From NCBI GenBank assembly GCA_022448165.1, contig JAKVAS010000003.1:1-54919 (forward strand): a stretch of DNA of 54,919 nucleotides, given 5' to 3'. The DNA is from Crocinitomicaceae bacterium (GTDB lineage: Bacteria; Bacteroidota; Bacteroidia; Flavobacteriales_D; Crocinitomicaceae). Below, piece by piece: positions 11,867-18,859 of the stretch. The translations under genes were made by a program, and so were the position numbers. Within the stretch, counting starts at the first letter, position 1. The number at the start of each line of letters is the position of its first letter. The notes under the pieces are model-generated. The model was not told where the DNA came from and did no database searches. It worked only from the letters and a program-made list of their open reading frames with translations.

Positions 11867-12706
11867 TTATTTCGAGATTCGAAGAGCAAATTTATAAACA
11901 TTGGTCGCCGTTCTTAAAAAAAAGAAACCATTGAGGTAAGTAAACGCTTGTACGTCTTCAATTGGAAGCTTTATCATTCCTTCTACTCCAAGTTCCCATG
12001 GCTTCATCTTAACGTAATCATCAGATAAAGAAAATAAGAATGCCTCATTTCCTTCAATACTTTTGATTCCCCTTCCTTCGATAAACTCCAATAATGATCC
12101 ATATACATCAAAAATATAAATCCCCTTTCCTTCATCTAACAGCAACAATCGGTTATTTCTCTCAATCATCATTGTTATCCCCTCCACATTAAGTATTCCT
12201 CTTAAATTTTTAATCTCTTGATTCTGTAAAGTTCCATCCAAAGAAAGCAAAATCAATGATGAGTTTACATTATCTAACACCCAAATTTTATTTGGTTGAT
12301 TCGAAATACAAACCAATGAAGCATTTTCAACACCCCGATCCAATAATTCAATACAATCATCCGTATTTGTAAGTGTATTATCAAAATAACAAAGGGTTTG
12401 TTGTTCTTCAGAAAAATGCACCAGTTTCATGCTATTTATAGGATCCAAAGAAGAAGTAGTTCCTAAAGATTTGATACTCTGCATAAAAAGTTTCTGACCA
12501 GTGGAATCGTACTTCGTAATATTTCCAGATTTAGAAAGGTAATAGTTCTCCAATCTATCCATTGACCACATATCAGAAGAATCTACACTCATTGAAAACT
12601 TTTCTTCCCATTGAACATTCAGCGTATCTTGCCCAAAAGAGTACCCTGAAATCAGGGTGATAAATAACAATACCACTCTATTACTTATTTTCAATCGACA
12701 CATCAT
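11867..12706 (-). CDS. Secreted propeller-like protein of unknown function
   Basis: Two adjacent ATGs at 12706 and 12703 precede a signal peptide (LKISNRVVLLFITLISGYSFGQ). Reading further upstream to 12811 would only extend into the GH3 gene. About 280 residues. The mature part repeats short beta-strand units of the kind seen in NHL/six-bladed propellers (LSKSGNITKYDSTGQKL, KIWVLDNVNSSLILLSLDGT, RLLLLDEGKGIYIFDVYGSL). I infer a propeller or a binding protein in the periplasm. No catalytic residues stand out. Its 5' end overlaps the 3' end of the GH3 gene by about 26 bases, so the two are translated from one message. Confidence 0.75.
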   Translation of the reverse strand: MMCRLKISNRVVLLFITLISGYSFGQDTLNVQWEEKFSMSVDSSDMWSMDRLENYYLSKSGNITKYDSTGQKLFMQSIKSLGTTSSLDPINSMKLVHFSEEQQTLCYFDNTLTNTDDCIELLDRGVENASLVCISNQPNKIWVLDNVNSSLILLSLDGTLQNQEIKNLRGILNVEGITMMIERNNRLLLLDEGKGIYIFDVYGSLLEFIEGRGIKSIEGNEAFLFSLSDDYVKMKPWELGVEGMIKLPIEDVQAFTYLNGFFFLRTATNVYKFALRISK

Positions 12707-14216
12707 CCTTTTGTGTTTGCAATATTTGTTCCACAAGCTTTCTGTCATTGGACAATCTAGGGATTTTATTCTGCCCTCCCAACTTCCCAATACTTCGTAA
12801 CCACTTATCAAACGTTCCTTTTTGTATAATATTGACTTTAGGACTCTCTAATACAAGGTTATGGTATCGTTTGGCATCGTAGTCTGAATTTATTTCACGA
12901 AGAGTTTCATCAAGTATTCGAATAAATCGATCCATCTCATCGGGAAATTGAACAAACTCAACACACCATTCATGAGCTCCTTTATCCTTCCCTTCCATAT
13001 AAAGAGGACAAGCAGTAAACTCTCTAACTTGGGCATTAGTCCTACTACAAGCTTCGGCCATAGCGTGTTCAGCATTCTCCACAATTAACTCTTCCCCAAA
13101 TGTATTGATATAACTCTTTGTTCTTCCTGTAATAGAAAAACGATATGGTGCAGTAGATGAAAACTTAATTGTATCACCAATAATGTAACGCCAAAGCCCA
13201 CCATTTGTAGAAATAACTAATGCATAATTAACACCCAGCTCAACATCTTCTATAGCAATCGTATTCTTAGATTGACGCCCATTAAATTCGTTCATCGGAA
13301 TAAACTCGAAAAAAATACCGTAATCCAACATTAAGAGCATTTGATCTTTATCCACCTCATCTTGAATCCCAAAAAAACCTTCAGATGCATTATATGTTTC
13401 CACATAATTCATTTTAGGATCAGGAATCAACCTTTTAAAATGCTCACGATATGGTTCAAAATTGACACCTCCATGCATAAACAATTCAAGATTTGGCCAC
13501 ACCTCTTTCAAATTTGATTTCCCTGAAATTTCCAATACTCGATTAGCCAAGACCATTGTCCAACTGGGCACTCCGGCAATAATATAAATATCCTGCTCAA
13601 TAGTTGATCGAGCCATTTTTTCTATCTTCTCCTCCCACTCACTCATTAAAGCAATTTCGCGCGCCGGTGTTCTTCTAATTTCAGCCCACCAAGGAAGATT
13701 CTTTACAATTATTGCTGATAAATCCCCGAAATATGAATCTGAGGAAAGATAATTCACTTCAGCACTTCCTCCTATAATTAAATGTTTGCCTTTATATAGT
13801 TTCCGATTAGGATGATTGTGATAATAAAGTCCAAGCAGATCCTTACCTCCTTTATAATGACAATCCTCTAAAGATTCTTTTGTTACTGGTATCAATTTAC
13901 TTCTCCCTGAAGTTGTGCCCGAGGACTTTGCAAACCATTTGGTATCTGTAGGCCAAAGAAGCTGTTGCTCTCCTTCCATCAAACGATCAACCCATGGTTT
14001 TACGTCTTCATAATATTGAAGAGGGACCTTTTCTTTAAAGTCTTTATAGCTCTCAATTTGATCAAAGTTATACTTCCGTCCAAACTCAGTCTTTCTTCCC
14101 ATTTCAATATGCCGCTGAAACAACTCTTGTTGCACTTCAATGGGGTATTTTCGAAACAAATCAATTTGATGAATTCGTTTCTTTATAACCCAAGCAAAAA
14201 TGGAGTTGAATGGCAT
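12681..14216 (-). CDS. GH3 auxin-responsive-promoter family adenylating enzyme (first copy)
   Basis: The protein is 511 residues, the usual length for bacterial GH3 proteins. The ATP-binding loop FAKSSGTTSGRSKLIPVT is near residue 105. Further family marks are GVPSWTMVL, the TYNASEGFFGIQ motif and the hinge region GLWRYIIGDTIKF. GH3 enzymes belong to the ANL superfamily: plant members adenylate a carboxylate such as jasmonate or indole acetate and link it to an amino acid. The substrates of the Bacteroidota members are unknown. A second, clearly related copy lies at 17339. Just before this gene is a terminator for the upstream small gene, so it should have its own promoter; only a near-consensus box is visible around 14233-14241. 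Confidence 0.87.
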   Translation of the reverse strand: MPFNSIFAWVIKKRIHQIDLFRKYPIEVQQELFQRHIEMGRKTEFGRKYNFDQIESYKDFKEKVPLQYYEDVKPWVDRLMEGEQQLLWPTDTKWFAKSSGTTSGRSKLIPVTKESLEDCHYKGGKDLLGLYYHNHPNRKLYKGKHLIIGGSAEVNYLSSDSYFGDLSAIIVKNLPWWAEIRRTPAREIALMSEWEEKIEKMARSTIEQDIYIIAGVPSWTMVLANRVLEISGKSNLKEVWPNLELFMHGGVNFEPYREHFKRLIPDPKMNYVETYNASEGFFGIQDEVDKDQMLLMLDYGIFFEFIPMNEFNGRQSKNTIAIEDVELGVNYALVISTNGGLWRYIIGDTIKFSSTAPYRFSITGRTKSYINTFGEELIVENAEHAMAEACSRTNAQVREFTACPLYMEGKDKGAHEWCVEFVQFPDEMDRFIRILDETLREINSDYDAKRYHNLVLESPKVNIIQKGTFDKWLRSIGKLGGQNKIPRLSNDRKLVEQILQTQKDDVSIENK

Positions 14217-14243: not shown

Positions 14244-14281
14244 AAAAAAAATCCCGTCTCGCTTTCGCGAAATGACAGGAT
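14244..14281 (-). terminator. Intrinsic terminator of the 32-residue peptide gene
   Basis: Bases 14251-14281 form a hairpin: an outer stem ATCCxGTC/GACxGGAT with one mismatch and an inner stem TCGC/GCGA around TTTC. On the minus strand it is followed by a run of T (A run at 14244-14250). It lies 24 bases beyond the stop of the small gene and ends 35 bases before the GH3 start. Confidence 0.8.
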
Positions 14282-14305
14282 AAAATTTTCATATTTCTAA
14301 TTCGT

Positions 14306-14404
14306 TTATCCGAAGAAAACGATAGAGAATACAATTGCAAGAAGAGCAAGTGTAATAATTGTTCCTACTGCTGCTGTAGATCCTTCAAAAAAATTATCAG
14401 CCAT
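14306..14404 (-). CDS. 32-residue single-helix membrane peptide
   Basis: ATG at 14404 to TAA at 14306 encodes 32 residues: a short polar start MADNFFEGSTAA, then one hydrophobic helix (IITLALLAIVFSIVFF) to the last Gly. I do not recognise it. Three things support a real gene: a TACCTTTG promoter box 19 nt upstream, a hairpin terminator 24 bases downstream, and a clean single-helix composition. It would be a small inner-membrane protein, perhaps a subunit or regulator of a larger complex; that role is inference. Neither flanking gene is close enough to share its terminator. Confidence 0.65.
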   Translation of the reverse strand: MADNFFEGSTAAVGTIITLALLAIVFSIVFFG

Positions 14405-14423
14405 AACGTTTACGTTTTTCTTT

Positions 14424-14431
14424 CAAAGGTA
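14424..14431 (-). promoter_or_regulatory. -7 promoter box TACCTTTG for the 32-residue peptide gene
   Basis: On the minus strand TACCTTTG matches TAnnTTTG and leaves 19 nt to the ATG at 14404. A TTG lies upstream, but closer than the usual spacing. Confidence 0.55.
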
Positions 14432-14491: not shown

Positions 14492-15643
14492 TTAGGGTCT
14501 TTTTCCAATCCCTGTTACAAATTGAAGCAACAGTCCCCATCTTTTTTCATCAGCCTCTTTAATAGAAGAATAAAAATGATTCAATCTTATACGCGTATGA
14601 GGAGAAAAAGAATATGTTAAACTTGTCGCACTTGTACTATTTAAATGATACAGTTCCTTCGAATAAACAGAGTTTAAATAATTAATCGCGAATGAAGAAC
14701 TCACGAACATTTTATTCATGATATAAAAATCTACACTTCCTTGATAATTCACAAATGCAAAACCTCCTTCTCTTTCCGATTCTGTATGCCCCAAAGACAC
14801 CTGATTAGAAACACGGAATTTCTCGTAAAACTTATAGATCCAATCTCCTCCTATTCTATTGATAAGAGCAATATCATCACTAATCAAAGTATTATTAATT
14901 CTACCTGAAACAATATTCAACCCAAATTCGTTCTTCTTAAAGGTTGGATTTCCAATGTGAGAAGTTATTAACCAAGTATTGTCGTAAGAATAATTCGAAA
15001 AACTAAACTTAGGACTCAAACTTTCATCTTCACTATCATTAATTAAATTATCACATACAAGAATTGGCTTATTTAGCATTCCTCCTGAAGTAATTGCCAA
15101 TTCCATATCCAATTGATTAGATACCGGTGTTTTTAAGAAAAAACCTAAATCTTGCACAAACCCAATGTCCATCTTAATAAGGTTTGTCATAAAACTTGAT
15201 ACAGGATCTAATTTAGGATTATGTCCATAAGGAATTGACTTATTACCAATCCATAAATTAGTACGGTCCCATTTTGTATCGAATTTCAACCAAGTATCAA
15301 GCAATTGAAACTTAAAGTTTGCTTCCCGCTGCCCTTGCTGATTTACGGTTTTATCAAATGGAATTGAAAACCTCAATTTCGAAGAACTTAAACTTAAGGT
15401 TTTCACATAGCCCTTTTGTAACCTTTTCTGATTAATCGTAAACAATTGAAATGCCAATTGATTCTTAGGTCCTCGATTCGTTAAATCCCATCTTCCACCA
15501 TTGATATCATGTATGTACCCACCATGCAGGTTCAACTGTGTATAAAAAAAGGAATTTTGCTGTTTCGTTTGCTTCATTGCATTCTGTCCGAATCCTAAAA
15601 AAGTAAAACAGCAGAAAAAAGCTATAACAGATAAACTCTTCAT
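14492..15643 (-). CDS. Putative outer-membrane beta-barrel protein of unknown function
   Basis: The protein is 383 residues with a signal peptide (MKSLSVIAFFCCFTFLGFGQ). The rest is made of alternating amphipathic strands with aromatic residues and short turns (YTQLNLHGGYIHDI, FKFQLLDTWLKFD, WLITSHIGNP, RVSNQVSLGH, SLTYSFSPHTRIRLNHFYSS), suggesting a porin-like barrel, perhaps 14-18 strands. I cannot name a family. It starts 2 bases after the stop of the lipoprotein gene, so the two are one operon and may form an outer-membrane pair. Substrate unknown. Confidence 0.72.
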   Translation of the reverse strand: MKSLSVIAFFCCFTFLGFGQNAMKQTKQQNSFFYTQLNLHGGYIHDINGGRWDLTNRGPKNQLAFQLFTINQKRLQKGYVKTLSLSSSKLRFSIPFDKTVNQQGQREANFKFQLLDTWLKFDTKWDRTNLWIGNKSIPYGHNPKLDPVSSFMTNLIKMDIGFVQDLGFFLKTPVSNQLDMELAITSGGMLNKPILVCDNLINDSEDESLSPKFSFSNYSYDNTWLITSHIGNPTFKKNEFGLNIVSGRINNTLISDDIALINRIGGDWIYKFYEKFRVSNQVSLGHTESEREGGFAFVNYQGSVDFYIMNKMFVSSSFAINYLNSVYSKELYHLNSTSATSLTYSFSPHTRIRLNHFYSSIKEADEKRWGLLLQFVTGIGKRP

Positions 15644-15645
15644 TC

Positions 15646-17142
15646 TTAATAATTATATAGTCCTTTACGAATTCTCAACTTTTCTCTCATCGGTTTTGAC
15701 AATTTAATTCTTGCCATCCACACCGGGGTAATACGTTCATATGAAAGCACATAAATGATCATAACATCTCTTTCTAACGATTCATAGGTTAAGTAAATCT
15801 TCTCAATCCCTTTATATTGATTGTTCACCCATTTGTCATCATCTTTGTTTGTAAGTAAAACGTACGGTTTAATATCATTAGGAAGAAGGTCAGCATCAAA
15901 TGCTAGCGTACTCTGCGTTGGATTATACCTTCTGTTCTTAGGATAGGTATTAATTCCAAAAAGCAATCCTGATAATTTTTGTTCATTCAATAATGAAAGG
16001 TCGATATTTCCGATATTAATTTTGTAGGGCGTCCATTGTCCTGTTAAGACAATTTCCGCATAAGCTTCCGTTCCTTTTACATCTATAACATTTAAGTGCA
16101 CAGAATCTAAATATTGCATCCAATTCAGGTCAAATTCTTTAGGTGTTTTTTCCGTATAAAAACCTCGATCTTTAAACTGTGTTGTTTTCACTGGGCTTTC
16201 AAGAATTGATGTGTATGTTTGATCCGTACCTTCTAAGAGTAATTGAAACTCTTTCTTGTAGAACTGTTCATTATCCAATGGTTCAATTATCCTCCCACTC
16301 TTTGCACCAATCTCCAATAGTTCTGTTTTCGCTCTATATCTAATTGGTTCACGCAATTGAGAAAAGTCAATAACTGTATTTTCTGCTAAGTTCGATATAG
16401 AATCATACTCCATCATAAAGTCTACGGACAATTCAGGGTTCTTCAATTTAACCAGTCGTCGGTATAAATCTTTGTCCAAGAAAAACCAACTATGTGATAA
16501 AATTCTATTCTGATTCAAGTTTATTGAATCCTTCAATCGCTCATTAAAGTCAGAGTAATCTTCCGTTGTTAAAACAAACTCCCACTTAGTAGCTGCCAAA
16601 CAATTATTCACCAACTGACAACGATATGCGCGCTGCTGAACATCCTGCAAAACATGCTTTTGCGTTGAATCAACAGAAAAAGTAAACTCATTATGTTCCT
16701 TCCTAAATGAATAACCGAATCGGTTAAATTCTTCCTCAATAATTTCGGGATAGATCATATCTCCCTTAGCATCAAATTTTGGAACAAGACGTAACAGATC
16801 GACACCATCAATTTCTACTTTATTATTATTTGGATCATAGAATGTAATATCTGTAAGAATCTTTCCTACAGGCATTTTATCATGAAGACGGATTTCTATA
16901 TTTTCAAAACGTAGATTGGAACTATGGCCATAGAGAGAATCTTTCTCTCCAATATCATATTTGTAGTTAAAACCTGGACTGCTAGCATCTAATGTAACAA
17001 CATTGTTTTCATATTTATCAAAAAATGAAAGGATCGATTCTGGCGCTTCTTTTTGTCCTTTCGTACGGTTAATATCGTTCCACTTCACAGTATGACATGC
17101 TGATAATAGTAGAGCGACAATAATAGCAGTGATACTTTTCAT
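15646..17142 (-). CDS. Large lipoprotein of unknown function
   Basis: The protein is 498 residues. The signal MKSITAIIVALLLSAC ends in lipobox LLSAC, so the mature protein should be lipid-anchored. I recognise no catalytic domain. It is charged, with many strand-like segments, and a C-terminal stretch rich in Arg/Lys (RIKLSKPMREKLRIRKGLYNY). Two Cys, near residues 173 and 179 (YRCQLVNNCLAA), could form a disulphide. The gene has its own promoter box and is followed after 2 bases by the outer-membrane-like protein gene. The pair sits between two GH3 genes. The function is not predictable from sequence alone. Confidence 0.78.
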   Translation of the reverse strand: MKSITAIIVALLLSACHTVKWNDINRTKGQKEAPESILSFFDKYENNVVTLDASSPGFNYKYDIGEKDSLYGHSSNLRFENIEIRLHDKMPVGKILTDITFYDPNNNKVEIDGVDLLRLVPKFDAKGDMIYPEIIEEEFNRFGYSFRKEHNEFTFSVDSTQKHVLQDVQQRAYRCQLVNNCLAATKWEFVLTTEDYSDFNERLKDSINLNQNRILSHSWFFLDKDLYRRLVKLKNPELSVDFMMEYDSISNLAENTVIDFSQLREPIRYRAKTELLEIGAKSGRIIEPLDNEQFYKKEFQLLLEGTDQTYTSILESPVKTTQFKDRGFYTEKTPKEFDLNWMQYLDSVHLNVIDVKGTEAYAEIVLTGQWTPYKINIGNIDLSLLNEQKLSGLLFGINTYPKNRRYNPTQSTLAFDADLLPNDIKPYVLLTNKDDDKWVNNQYKGIEKIYLTYESLERDVMIIYVLSYERITPVWMARIKLSKPMREKLRIRKGLYNY

Positions 17143-17338: not shown

Positions 17339-18859
17339 ATGGAATTAATCGGAAAAGCAATCAAGGAGACCACAAGAATCGGTTACAAATTAACAGCCAT
17401 AAAACCATCGAAAAAAAATGCTCAACAAGAAACATTAAGAAAGCTACTAACGAAAGCAAAGAACACCTCTTTCGGAATAAATCATCACTTTGAAGATATT
17501 GTTTCCATTACAGATTGTGAGTACCCATTTAAATCCTTCGTTCCGATCACTAATTATGAGCAATTTCATGAAAAATGGCTTTCACGATCATTGGCGGATG
17601 AAAAAAACGTAACCTGGCCGGGAAGAATTTCATACTATGCATTATCATCAGGAACTACTAATTCTCCAAGTAAAAAAATTCCGGTTTCAGAAAAAATGAT
17701 CTCCGAATTCCAAAAAACCTCGATTCAACAAGTTTACGAAACTCATCAATTAAACCTAACCAGATCATTTTATGAGTCCAACATCTTAATTATTGGAGGA
17801 ACTACAAACCTCAAAAAAGTCGGCAAACATCATGAAGGTGATCTAAGTGGAATACTAGCAAAGAACACGACATTCGTTACCAGTCAGTTCATTAAACCAC
17901 CAAAAAAAATATCGAAAATACTAGACTGGAACGAAAAGATGGACGCAATTATAGCCAACGCTCCGTTTTGGGATATTGGTTCAATTGCAGGTATACCTTC
18001 CTGGGTCTCTCTTTTACTTCACGAAATCATAAAACACTATAATTTAAAAGACATCCATGAGATTTGGCCGAATCTGCAAGTATATTCTCATGGTGGAATC
18101 TTTCTTGAACCTTTCAAAAAGAAGCTAGAAGGTTTTTTTGGTCGAAAAGTTTATTTTCAAAACACCTACTTGGCAAGCGAAGGATACTTTGCTTACCAAC
18201 AATGCGGAAACAACAATGGAATGTCATTATTAGAATCCAGCGGAATCTACTACGAATTCATTCCTGAAGAGTATTTTGAAAAAGTAAATGAAGGAGACTT
18301 TAATAATGTTCACACTTTAGGAATTAATTCAGTTCAAGAGAATACTTCTTATGCAGTAGTAATTTCTACTTGTTCTGGATTGTGGCGTTATTCACTTGGA
18401 GATATTATTAAATTCACCAATATTAAAGAACGAACAATTGAAGTCATAGGAAGAGTTTCGTTCTCTTTAAATATGGTAGGTGAACACCTTTCTGATGGCA
18501 ATCTGCAAGAAGCAATTGAACGAATGGGTAAGGACCTTTATTTATCAACCTCTAACTACTGTGTAGTACCAAACTTTCTTGAAAACAGACATGAATGGTA
18601 TATAAGTTTTCATGAGGATGCTTTAACTATAAAAGAACTAATCACCAGGCTTTTAGACCAAACATTAAAATTACTAAATGATGACTATCGATCGGCTCGA
18701 AAACAAACAATTAAGGCACCCAAAGTACACATCATTCCAGAAAACCGATTTTACGAGTTTATGGAAATAAATAATAAAATAGGTGGACAAAACAAATTCC
18801 CCCGCGTAATGAAGGGGAGTCAGGCCAGAGAATGGAAAAAATTCTTGTATCGTTCTTAA
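17339..18859 (+). CDS. GH3 family adenylating enzyme (second copy)
   Basis: The protein is 506 residues, paralogous to the product of 12681-14216. Shared landmarks are the ATP loop ALSSGTTNSPSKKIPVS, LIIGGTTNLKKV, HEGDLSGILAKN, GIPSWVSLLLHE, EIWPNLQVYSHGG, LASEGYFAYQ, GLWRYSLGDIIKF and a C-terminal KAPKVHIIPENRFYEFM plus GGQNKFPR. All sections of the fold are present, so it should be active. The two copies are clearly diverged, so they probably act on different acyl or amine substrates. It is transcribed alone, away from the lipoprotein operon, and ends directly against the Bax-inhibitor gene on the other strand with no room for a terminator. Confidence 0.87.
   Translation: MELIGKAIKETTRIGYKLTAIKPSKKNAQQETLRKLLTKAKNTSFGINHHFEDIVSITDCEYPFKSFVPITNYEQFHEKWLSRSLADEKNVTWPGRISYYALSSGTTNSPSKKIPVSEKMISEFQKTSIQQVYETHQLNLTRSFYESNILIIGGTTNLKKVGKHHEGDLSGILAKNTTFVTSQFIKPPKKISKILDWNEKMDAIIANAPFWDIGSIAGIPSWVSLLLHEIIKHYNLKDIHEIWPNLQVYSHGGIFLEPFKKKLEGFFGRKVYFQNTYLASEGYFAYQQCGNNNGMSLLESSGIYYEFIPEEYFEKVNEGDFNNVHTLGINSVQENTSYAVVISTCSGLWRYSLGDIIKFTNIKERTIEVIGRVSFSLNMVGEHLSDGNLQEAIERMGKDLYLSTSNYCVVPNFLENRHEWYISFHEDALTIKELITRLLDQTLKLLNDDYRSARKQTIKAPKVHIIPENRFYEFMEINNKIGGQNKFPRVMKGSQAREWKKFLYRS

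Follow-up and report, generated by a model that had tools for sequence, protein, structure and literature searches.

The 54,919-nucleotide stretch of Crocinitomicaceae DNA analysed here (the window; GCA_022448165.1, contig JAKVAS010000003.1) carries on its minus strand a gene for a one-helix membrane microprotein of 32 residues, which is almost certainly a real, translated gene with its own promoter box. The best explanation overall, to which we give a probability of about 0.35, is that this independently promoted microprotein serves as an accessory subunit, perhaps of the respiratory aa3/ACIII machinery. We infer its transcription and translation from conservation. The parts of the locus are as follows.

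14424..14431, minus strand: promoter box TACCTTTG, a -7 box of the Bacteroidota sigma-A type (TAnnTTTG)
14306..14404, minus strand: one-helix membrane microprotein gene, 32 codons (frame conservation, pN/pS, profile matches, predicted helix)
14244..14281, minus strand: intrinsic-terminator-like element, a stem-loop at 14281-14251 and a T-run at 14251-14244 (folding)
12681..14216, minus strand: GH3a, a GH3-family acid-amido ligase, the usual downstream neighbour, outside the unit (Pfam GH3, E 6.9e-67)
17339..18859, plus strand: GH3b, a second GH3 paralogue (Pfam)

The frame opens with an ATG at 14404, closes with a TAA at 14308-14306 and encodes MADNFFEGSTAAVGTIITLALLAIVFSIVFFG. Direct reading of the sequence finds the box, the 32-codon frame and the hairpin with its T-run on the minus strand, all at the positions given in the original prediction. 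The frame is intact in all 33 same-genus loci, own included. After removal of one duplicate, the 32 distinct sequences, which contain no internal stops and no indels, give a pN/pS of 0.40 from uncorrected proportions, and pN is below pS in 496/496 pairs. The other five frames range from 0.51 to 1.61 and hold stops in 10 to 32 of the 32 sequences; the low value of the reverse frame rev2 (0.51) is, as we read the alignment, a shadow of codon structure. By these measures the 32-codon frame is under protein-level selection, and the same-genus comparison excludes a chance origin of frame, box and hairpin together.

Hydropathy (GRAVY 1.61, best 19-residue mean 2.7) and AlphaFold2 (one helix at residues 3-31, mean pLDDT 85.5) agree with a single membrane helix, as had been proposed. 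The peptide is conserved over most of its length, with no run of regulatory codons. In the peptide alignment, the helix start, FE-STA-GTI, which has small residues along one side, is the most conserved; elsewhere substitutions are mostly between aliphatic residues. His and metal ligands are absent from the window peptide, and the His-rich end is missing throughout its own genus. His-rich N-terminal extensions, such as HDHSHDSHAHDDHGQHG, which are possibly metal-binding, occur in several own-family genera and in family f10 (L173 of G045, L251 of G064, L252 of G055, L167, L175, L152-L154 and L157).

The promoter box TACCTTTG, at 14431-14424 on the minus strand, begins 27 nt 5' of the ATG. TAnnTTTG is present at -20..-33 in 33/33 same-genus loci, against a shuffle mean of 0.42 and a maximum of 3, and at the same distance from the first ATG in 2 of 38 control ORFs of at least 150 aa in the window. 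Across 90 loci from the own genus and further relatives, the strict box was found in 70 (shuffle mean 1.05, maximum 4), or in 84 if TAnnTTTA is allowed. Upstream of the 30 loci of family f17, TAnnTTTG occurs in 12 and TAnnTT[T/C]G in 23, with shuffle means of 0.35 and 0.55, respectively. According to the excerpt of PMC9723704, the sigma-A -7 box of F. psychrophilum is TAnnTTTG and sits at -12 to -5; by this spacing, transcription would start at about 14419 and end at about 14244, with a leader of about 15 nt and an RNA of about 175 nt. This promoter regularity could also make the family a test case for small-gene finding in Bacteroidota.

The stem-loop ATCCTGTC...GACGGGAT at 14281-14251, followed on the minus strand by 8 T at 14251-14244, folds at -16.1 kcal/mol (z -5.3 against 100 mononucleotide shuffles). 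The stop codon and the stem are 24 nt apart, and frame and hairpin do not overlap. A hairpin of -10 kcal/mol or lower ahead of a T-run is present in 31/33 same-genus loci, with a mean z of -4.4 over all 33; L011 and L023 are without a good hairpin even by folding. These terminator counts are based on folding in place of a mismatch-free pattern, which finds only 9/33 loci (0.58 expected) because most stems have a mismatch or bulge; likewise, a simple terminator scan caught only the inner 6-bp part of the window stem, 14272-14257. Stem sequences vary between species of the genus; the stem sequence ATCCTGTC...GGAT is nevertheless kept in many of them. A real microprotein gene, as claimed at the outset, is thus what the intact frame, the box, the hairpin and the protein-level selection uphold.

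A translated search of 60 genomes (own and 59 relatives) found the gene as a single copy in 32/33 other same-genus genomes, while the only match in the window genome is the window locus. Profile A1, which consists of 39 peptides (41 less two duplicates), was searched against 399 genomes from the order. By hand count, 206/217 own-family (Crocinitomicaceae) genomes match at E<=0.01, a figure obtained by recounting 306 matches at E<=10 and assuming that the own-family misses lie within the 20 closest-kin misses listed. Besides these 206, the gene is present by direct reading in G216 and G376. In 8 of the remaining 9 own-family genomes the locus is missing or partial: G017, G268, G284 and G334 lack both a GH3a orthologue and the deoxynucleoside kinase gene located near it, their best GH3 matches (E 1e-96 to 1e-105) being paralogue-like; the contig of G398 stops 42 nt upstream of GH3a; G367 has no GH3 match at 1e-60; and GH3a is only partial in G373 and G387. 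Alone among the own-family genomes examined, G210 (C28:260400-266000, L213) has the GH3a locus intact but lacks the microprotein gene, with no match elsewhere; another ORF ends 71 nt ahead of its GH3a, and the genome is a possible natural knock-out. Since G210 keeps the GH3a locus, the microprotein gene can be lost.

Among other families of the order, 32 f3 and 6 f13 genomes match at E<=1.5e-9 by hand count, and f11 is represented through G046. The broader profile A3 found three f10 genomes, one of which already contributed to it; family f9 and several others of the order gave no match in the profile searches (399 genomes for A1). One strong match per genome is usual in the genus, and two occur in G339 and in the f17 genome G788. 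Second matches at L037 and L045, which do not lie beside GH3, were excluded from the 41 loci as chance or left aside. The gene is family-wide and has distant Bacteroidia relatives, so that the claim first made for one genome holds there, with a scope not limited to the window genome or genus. It represents a conserved, probably important gene family, hidden by length filters in hundreds of genomes.

GH3a lies directly downstream and co-directional in 40/41 distinct peptide loci, including 33/33 of the genus. It scores 422.5 bits (E 2.1e-126) against the NCBIfam OlsH model (NF052613), below the cut-off of 620; judged by this score, GH3a is a relative of OlsH, not an assigned member. From this score, the function of a protein otherwise vaguely labelled 'auxin-responsive' may concern N-acyl amino acids or aminolipids; OlsH is described as a lyso-ornithine lipid synthetase in the excerpt of PMC12493201. 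From 80 named GH3a loci, 50 were read, and the peptide stands directly upstream of GH3a in 17. These 17 include Taishania pollutisoli, Crocinitomix algicola and MAGs that bear the label Lishizhenia or Crocinitomicaceae, names by which the own family is identified as Crocinitomicaceae. The peptide is missing from this position in Lishizhenia tianjinensis (L057), UBA2798 (L060) and Brumimicrobium salinarum (L061).

In the genus, the gap between peptide and GH3a, which contains the hairpin, measures 65-93 nt in 31 loci and 167 in L022, one of the 33 loci not being covered by the measuring pattern. Many relatives outside the genus have a gap of 16-40 nt without a terminator. The description of the locus as a self-contained transcription unit therefore stands for its own genus and some others, but not for these many relatives. 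No TAnnTTTG was found in the genus gap before GH3a (0/32 stretches), the window having a near miss, TAACTTTTG. Since the gap lacks this box, read-through beyond the hairpin into GH3 from the peptide promoter is plausible.

These arrangements bear on the strongest rival explanation, namely that the microprotein works with GH3a, anchoring at the membrane or regulating an OlsH-like ligase for N-acyl amino acids (aminolipids), both expressed from one promoter, with the hairpin giving an excess of peptide over enzyme. Besides the genus-wide adjacency, the short terminator-free gaps, the box-free gap and the relation to OlsH, this idea draws on the adjacency seen in f3, f13 and f11, further families of the order, and if true it would provide a handle on aminolipid synthesis. 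However, the peptide is kept but located elsewhere in several genomes. Five of the ten g32 (Brumimicrobium-like) genomes were examined (G124, G214, G186, G227 and G234); there it lies upstream of DUF4290 (Pfam E 9.4e-68) and a murA-like gene (EPSP_synthase E 4e-65; one set tested), and TATTTTTA occupies the box position in all five, as judged by eye. GH3a persists elsewhere in the genome, without an adjacent peptide, in the three of them checked (G124, G186 and G214), and in G035 a DUF4290-like frame follows the peptide, also by eye. Relatives in families f10 and f17 are not beside GH3. In the Sphingobacteriales/Cytophagales loci among the 50 of 80 named loci read, no peptide was seen, and GH3 is usually preceded by an ABC-ATPase-like ORF, which we take to be LptB-like. 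The DUF4290-murA neighbourhood in the g32 genomes argues that the peptide belongs to an independent gene and is not a GH3 leader; on this comparison of loci the microprotein gene is independent of GH3a. A partnership with GH3a does not explain the relocations, and we consider it quite unlikely.

Relatives of the microprotein extend beyond the order. Profile A3, with 48 sequences of the own order, matched 26/395 genomes of the class at E<=0.05, of which 14 are outside the order and 5 of those belong to f17. The distant matches are longer, open with a polar and often His-rich stretch and share the FD/E-x-S/T...G...helix pattern, and frames of 31-53 codons are retained at such distant loci, some remote from GH3. 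With profile A4, which already contained five f17 sequences, 32/35 f17 genomes match at E<=0.1; the match in G789 (266-codon frame) looks false. From 30 f17 peptides, the near-duplicates L256, L259 and L279 were dropped, and the rest were split into two f17-only profiles, A5 (20) and A6 (7). In hhalign, A3 aligned with A5 at a probability of 96.9 (score 46.4, column-shuffled 15.3 +/- 3.9) and with A6 at 97.1 (score 46.1, column-shuffled 14.9 +/- 2.7), 0/60 shuffles scoring as high in either case, scores which are qualified by the f17 members having first been gathered for resemblance to the query. A5 matched 18/390 genomes, among them G061 with an f1 peptide at the GH3a place (E 7.5e-4), while 11 of 12 sampled own-family genomes, the window genome among them, were unmatched in this reciprocal search. 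The pooled profile A8 matched 40/385 class genomes at E<=0.003, comprising 11 of the own family, 13 of f17, 6 of f72 and 10 others, and found no detectable relative in 345/385. Two of the 10 others, G607 (709-codon frame) and G644 (internal stop), look false, and the weak matches L289 and L294 were taken as chance or left aside.

The gene neighbourhoods of these relatives differ. Among the 30 f17 loci, 9 come after a complete or partial lipoprotein-SCO1-cytochrome c set, 11 precede a HisC-like aminotransferase (assigned through NCBIfam hisC in L253 and by eye in the others), 6 are beside a gene presumably DUF58-like and 4 are elsewhere. In L261 the Pfam matches are E 6.2e-27 for SCO1-SenC and E 4.3e-10 for cytochrome c. 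The order lipoprotein, SCO1-SenC, cytochrome c and then microprotein recurs in f17 (L261, L266, L268, L271, L272, L278 and L280), and this set is apart from the aa3 cluster in G655. In f72, the peptide adjoins HemF in 3/4 loci read, and in the fourth a single gene separates the two; HemF was assigned through Pfam in L301 (E 4.8e-118) and by eye elsewhere. One f34 locus is beside genes resembling sdhC/sdhA, with Sdh_cyt at 25.7 bits, just below cut-off. No neighbour is constant across the phylum, where GH3, DUF4290-murA, HisC, DUF58-like, murF-alr-like, SCO1/cytochrome c and HemF all occur.

No family had been recognised for the peptide when it was first noticed, and none is found in Pfam, NCBIfam, PHROGs or PDB sequences. 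PHROGs and PDB sequences gave nothing significant; the best Pfam match of 39 members was DUF7550 at E 3e-4, to which the window's own sequence scores 10.8 bits against a cut-off of 27; and the best Pfam E for 20 f17 members was 0.004. In NCBIfam the best E was 0.0082 (0.0015 for A8), with no significant family. The C-terminal FG and the pairing of TatA with GH3 raised a possible relation to TatA, which was set aside, no TatA family being among the Pfam matches listed. The open-licence part of PubMed Central, searched by title and start of abstract (sequence is not searchable there), held no paper on such a peptide. The family is thus, as far as these curated libraries tell, new, while its kind, one-helix microproteins of membrane complexes, is already known.

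AcrZ, CydX and KdpF are examples, each a small subunit with one helix whose gene is separate from those of its complex. The window microprotein resembles them in size, single helix, separate conserved gene and small-residue packing face, but comes from a different phylum and has no sequence match to any named family. It would be inserted in the inner membrane as one helix, whose small-residue face (S9, T10, A11, A12 and G14) may pack against a larger membrane complex encoded elsewhere, since small residues on one side of a helix suit packing against other helices. In this arrangement the microprotein would be a small accessory or assembly subunit of that complex. Near-universal presence, a separate promoter and a single helix would suit an accessory subunit of this kind, and we consider this role probable.

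That the partner is the respiratory cytochrome aa3/ACIII machinery in particular is a guess, prompted by the neighbouring genes for SCO1/cytochrome c, HemF and sdh and by the His-rich N-termini, which are shared in kind with CoxA; the window-genome CoxA has a His-rich N-terminus, MAAVAHEAHGHHDDHGHHEE..., and its cluster encodes COX1, COX2 and an NrfD-family ActC/F-like protein. The window genome is 86.5% complete, and the one COX1 found, in this ACIII-aa3-like cluster, is presumably an A-type oxidase. No microprotein copy is present in the cluster, where ORFs of at least 75 aa were listed, the genome match being at the window locus only. COX1 occurs in 35/35 tested carriers, but also in 44/45 tested genomes without a detected peptide, so its co-occurrence is uninformative. 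This, the lack of a constant neighbour and the absence of relatives in most class genomes count against aa3/ACIII, and we regard the assignment as tentative and on balance unlikely. If it is true, the peptide would be a missing component of the principal aerobic respiratory chain in a major phylum. The fuller proposal, that an unannotated family of one-helix microproteins (31-53 residues, frequently His-rich at the N-terminus), found across several Bacteroidia families, is an overlooked subunit of the aa3-ACIII supercomplex, encoded apart, shifting between neighbourhoods and with its own sigma-A promoter, is more doubtful again.

A precedent among oxidases is subunit IIa of the B-type (ba3) enzymes, which, according to the excerpt of PMC3128077, has 41 residues and one helix in Aquifex aeolicus, was missed by annotation and was found from the genomic context of oxidase genes. 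The window peptide is similar in its 30-40-residue class, its one helix and its having been missed by annotation; unlike subunit IIa, its gene is on contig C223, while the COX1/COX2 cluster is on C112 (L315). The subunit IIa family was not among the Pfam matches listed (E 10; E 1 for f17), which is a weak test for so short a sequence. CcoQ/FixQ of cbb3 oxidases are likewise short with one helix; their family PF05545 had a best E of 0.41, not significant, in one f17 relative, and no cco genes were recognised by eye beside the loci read. For ACIII, the excerpt of PMC5928083 describes an unassigned periplasmic density and also ActG, with one predicted helix and no density in R. marinus. The excerpt of PMC8552683 makes no mention of an unassigned single helix in ACIII, and neither excerpt offers a link to the microprotein.

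Three further rivals would do without an accessory subunit. The length, one hydrophobic helix and own short transcript unit recall small hydrophobic type I toxins (TisB-like). Such toxins are patchy and multi-copy, whereas this gene has one strong match per same-genus genome, is near-universal in the family and mostly keeps the same place; Rfam also gave 0 matches in the window at the gathering threshold, and a toxin is very unlikely. Still less likely is attenuation, in which the peptide would be a leader and its translation would act on the hairpin to control GH3a. A short frame, a short leader and a hairpin with T-run do precede GH3a in the genus, but most of the amino acid sequence is conserved and contains no regulatory codon run, the 24 nt between stop and stem leave no overlap of frame and hairpin, and the peptide is retained where the hairpin is missing and at places remote from GH3a, a relocation that largely refutes attenuation. 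That the frame is spurious, with an RNA or the 5' region of GH3 accounting for the conservation, is hardly credible, for although the stretch is short and rev2 also scores low, the uniform excess of pS over pN, the lack of indels and stops and the frames kept at distant loci, some away from GH3, all speak against it.

As to the surroundings of the microprotein gene, the original prediction would have failed had the frame been lost in relatives while its flanks were kept; on comparison, the frame, the box and mostly the hairpin are kept, and the upstream flank is what changes. The window's upstream gene (14492-15643) was found in none of the other 29 loci compared, each with at most 1.5 kb of flank. 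The window holds two GH3-family ligases within about 6 kb, at 12681-14216 (minus) and 17339-18859 (plus), and between the microprotein gene and GH3b are two minus-strand ORFs of 383 and 498 aa (14492-17142) with no Pfam match. GH3b directly adjoins the microprotein gene on its other side in 8/30 loci (L003, L006, L007, L014, L015, L017, L021 and L028; matches 47-56% identical), and for this reason the two ORFs may be a lineage-specific insertion between the two GH3 paralogues.
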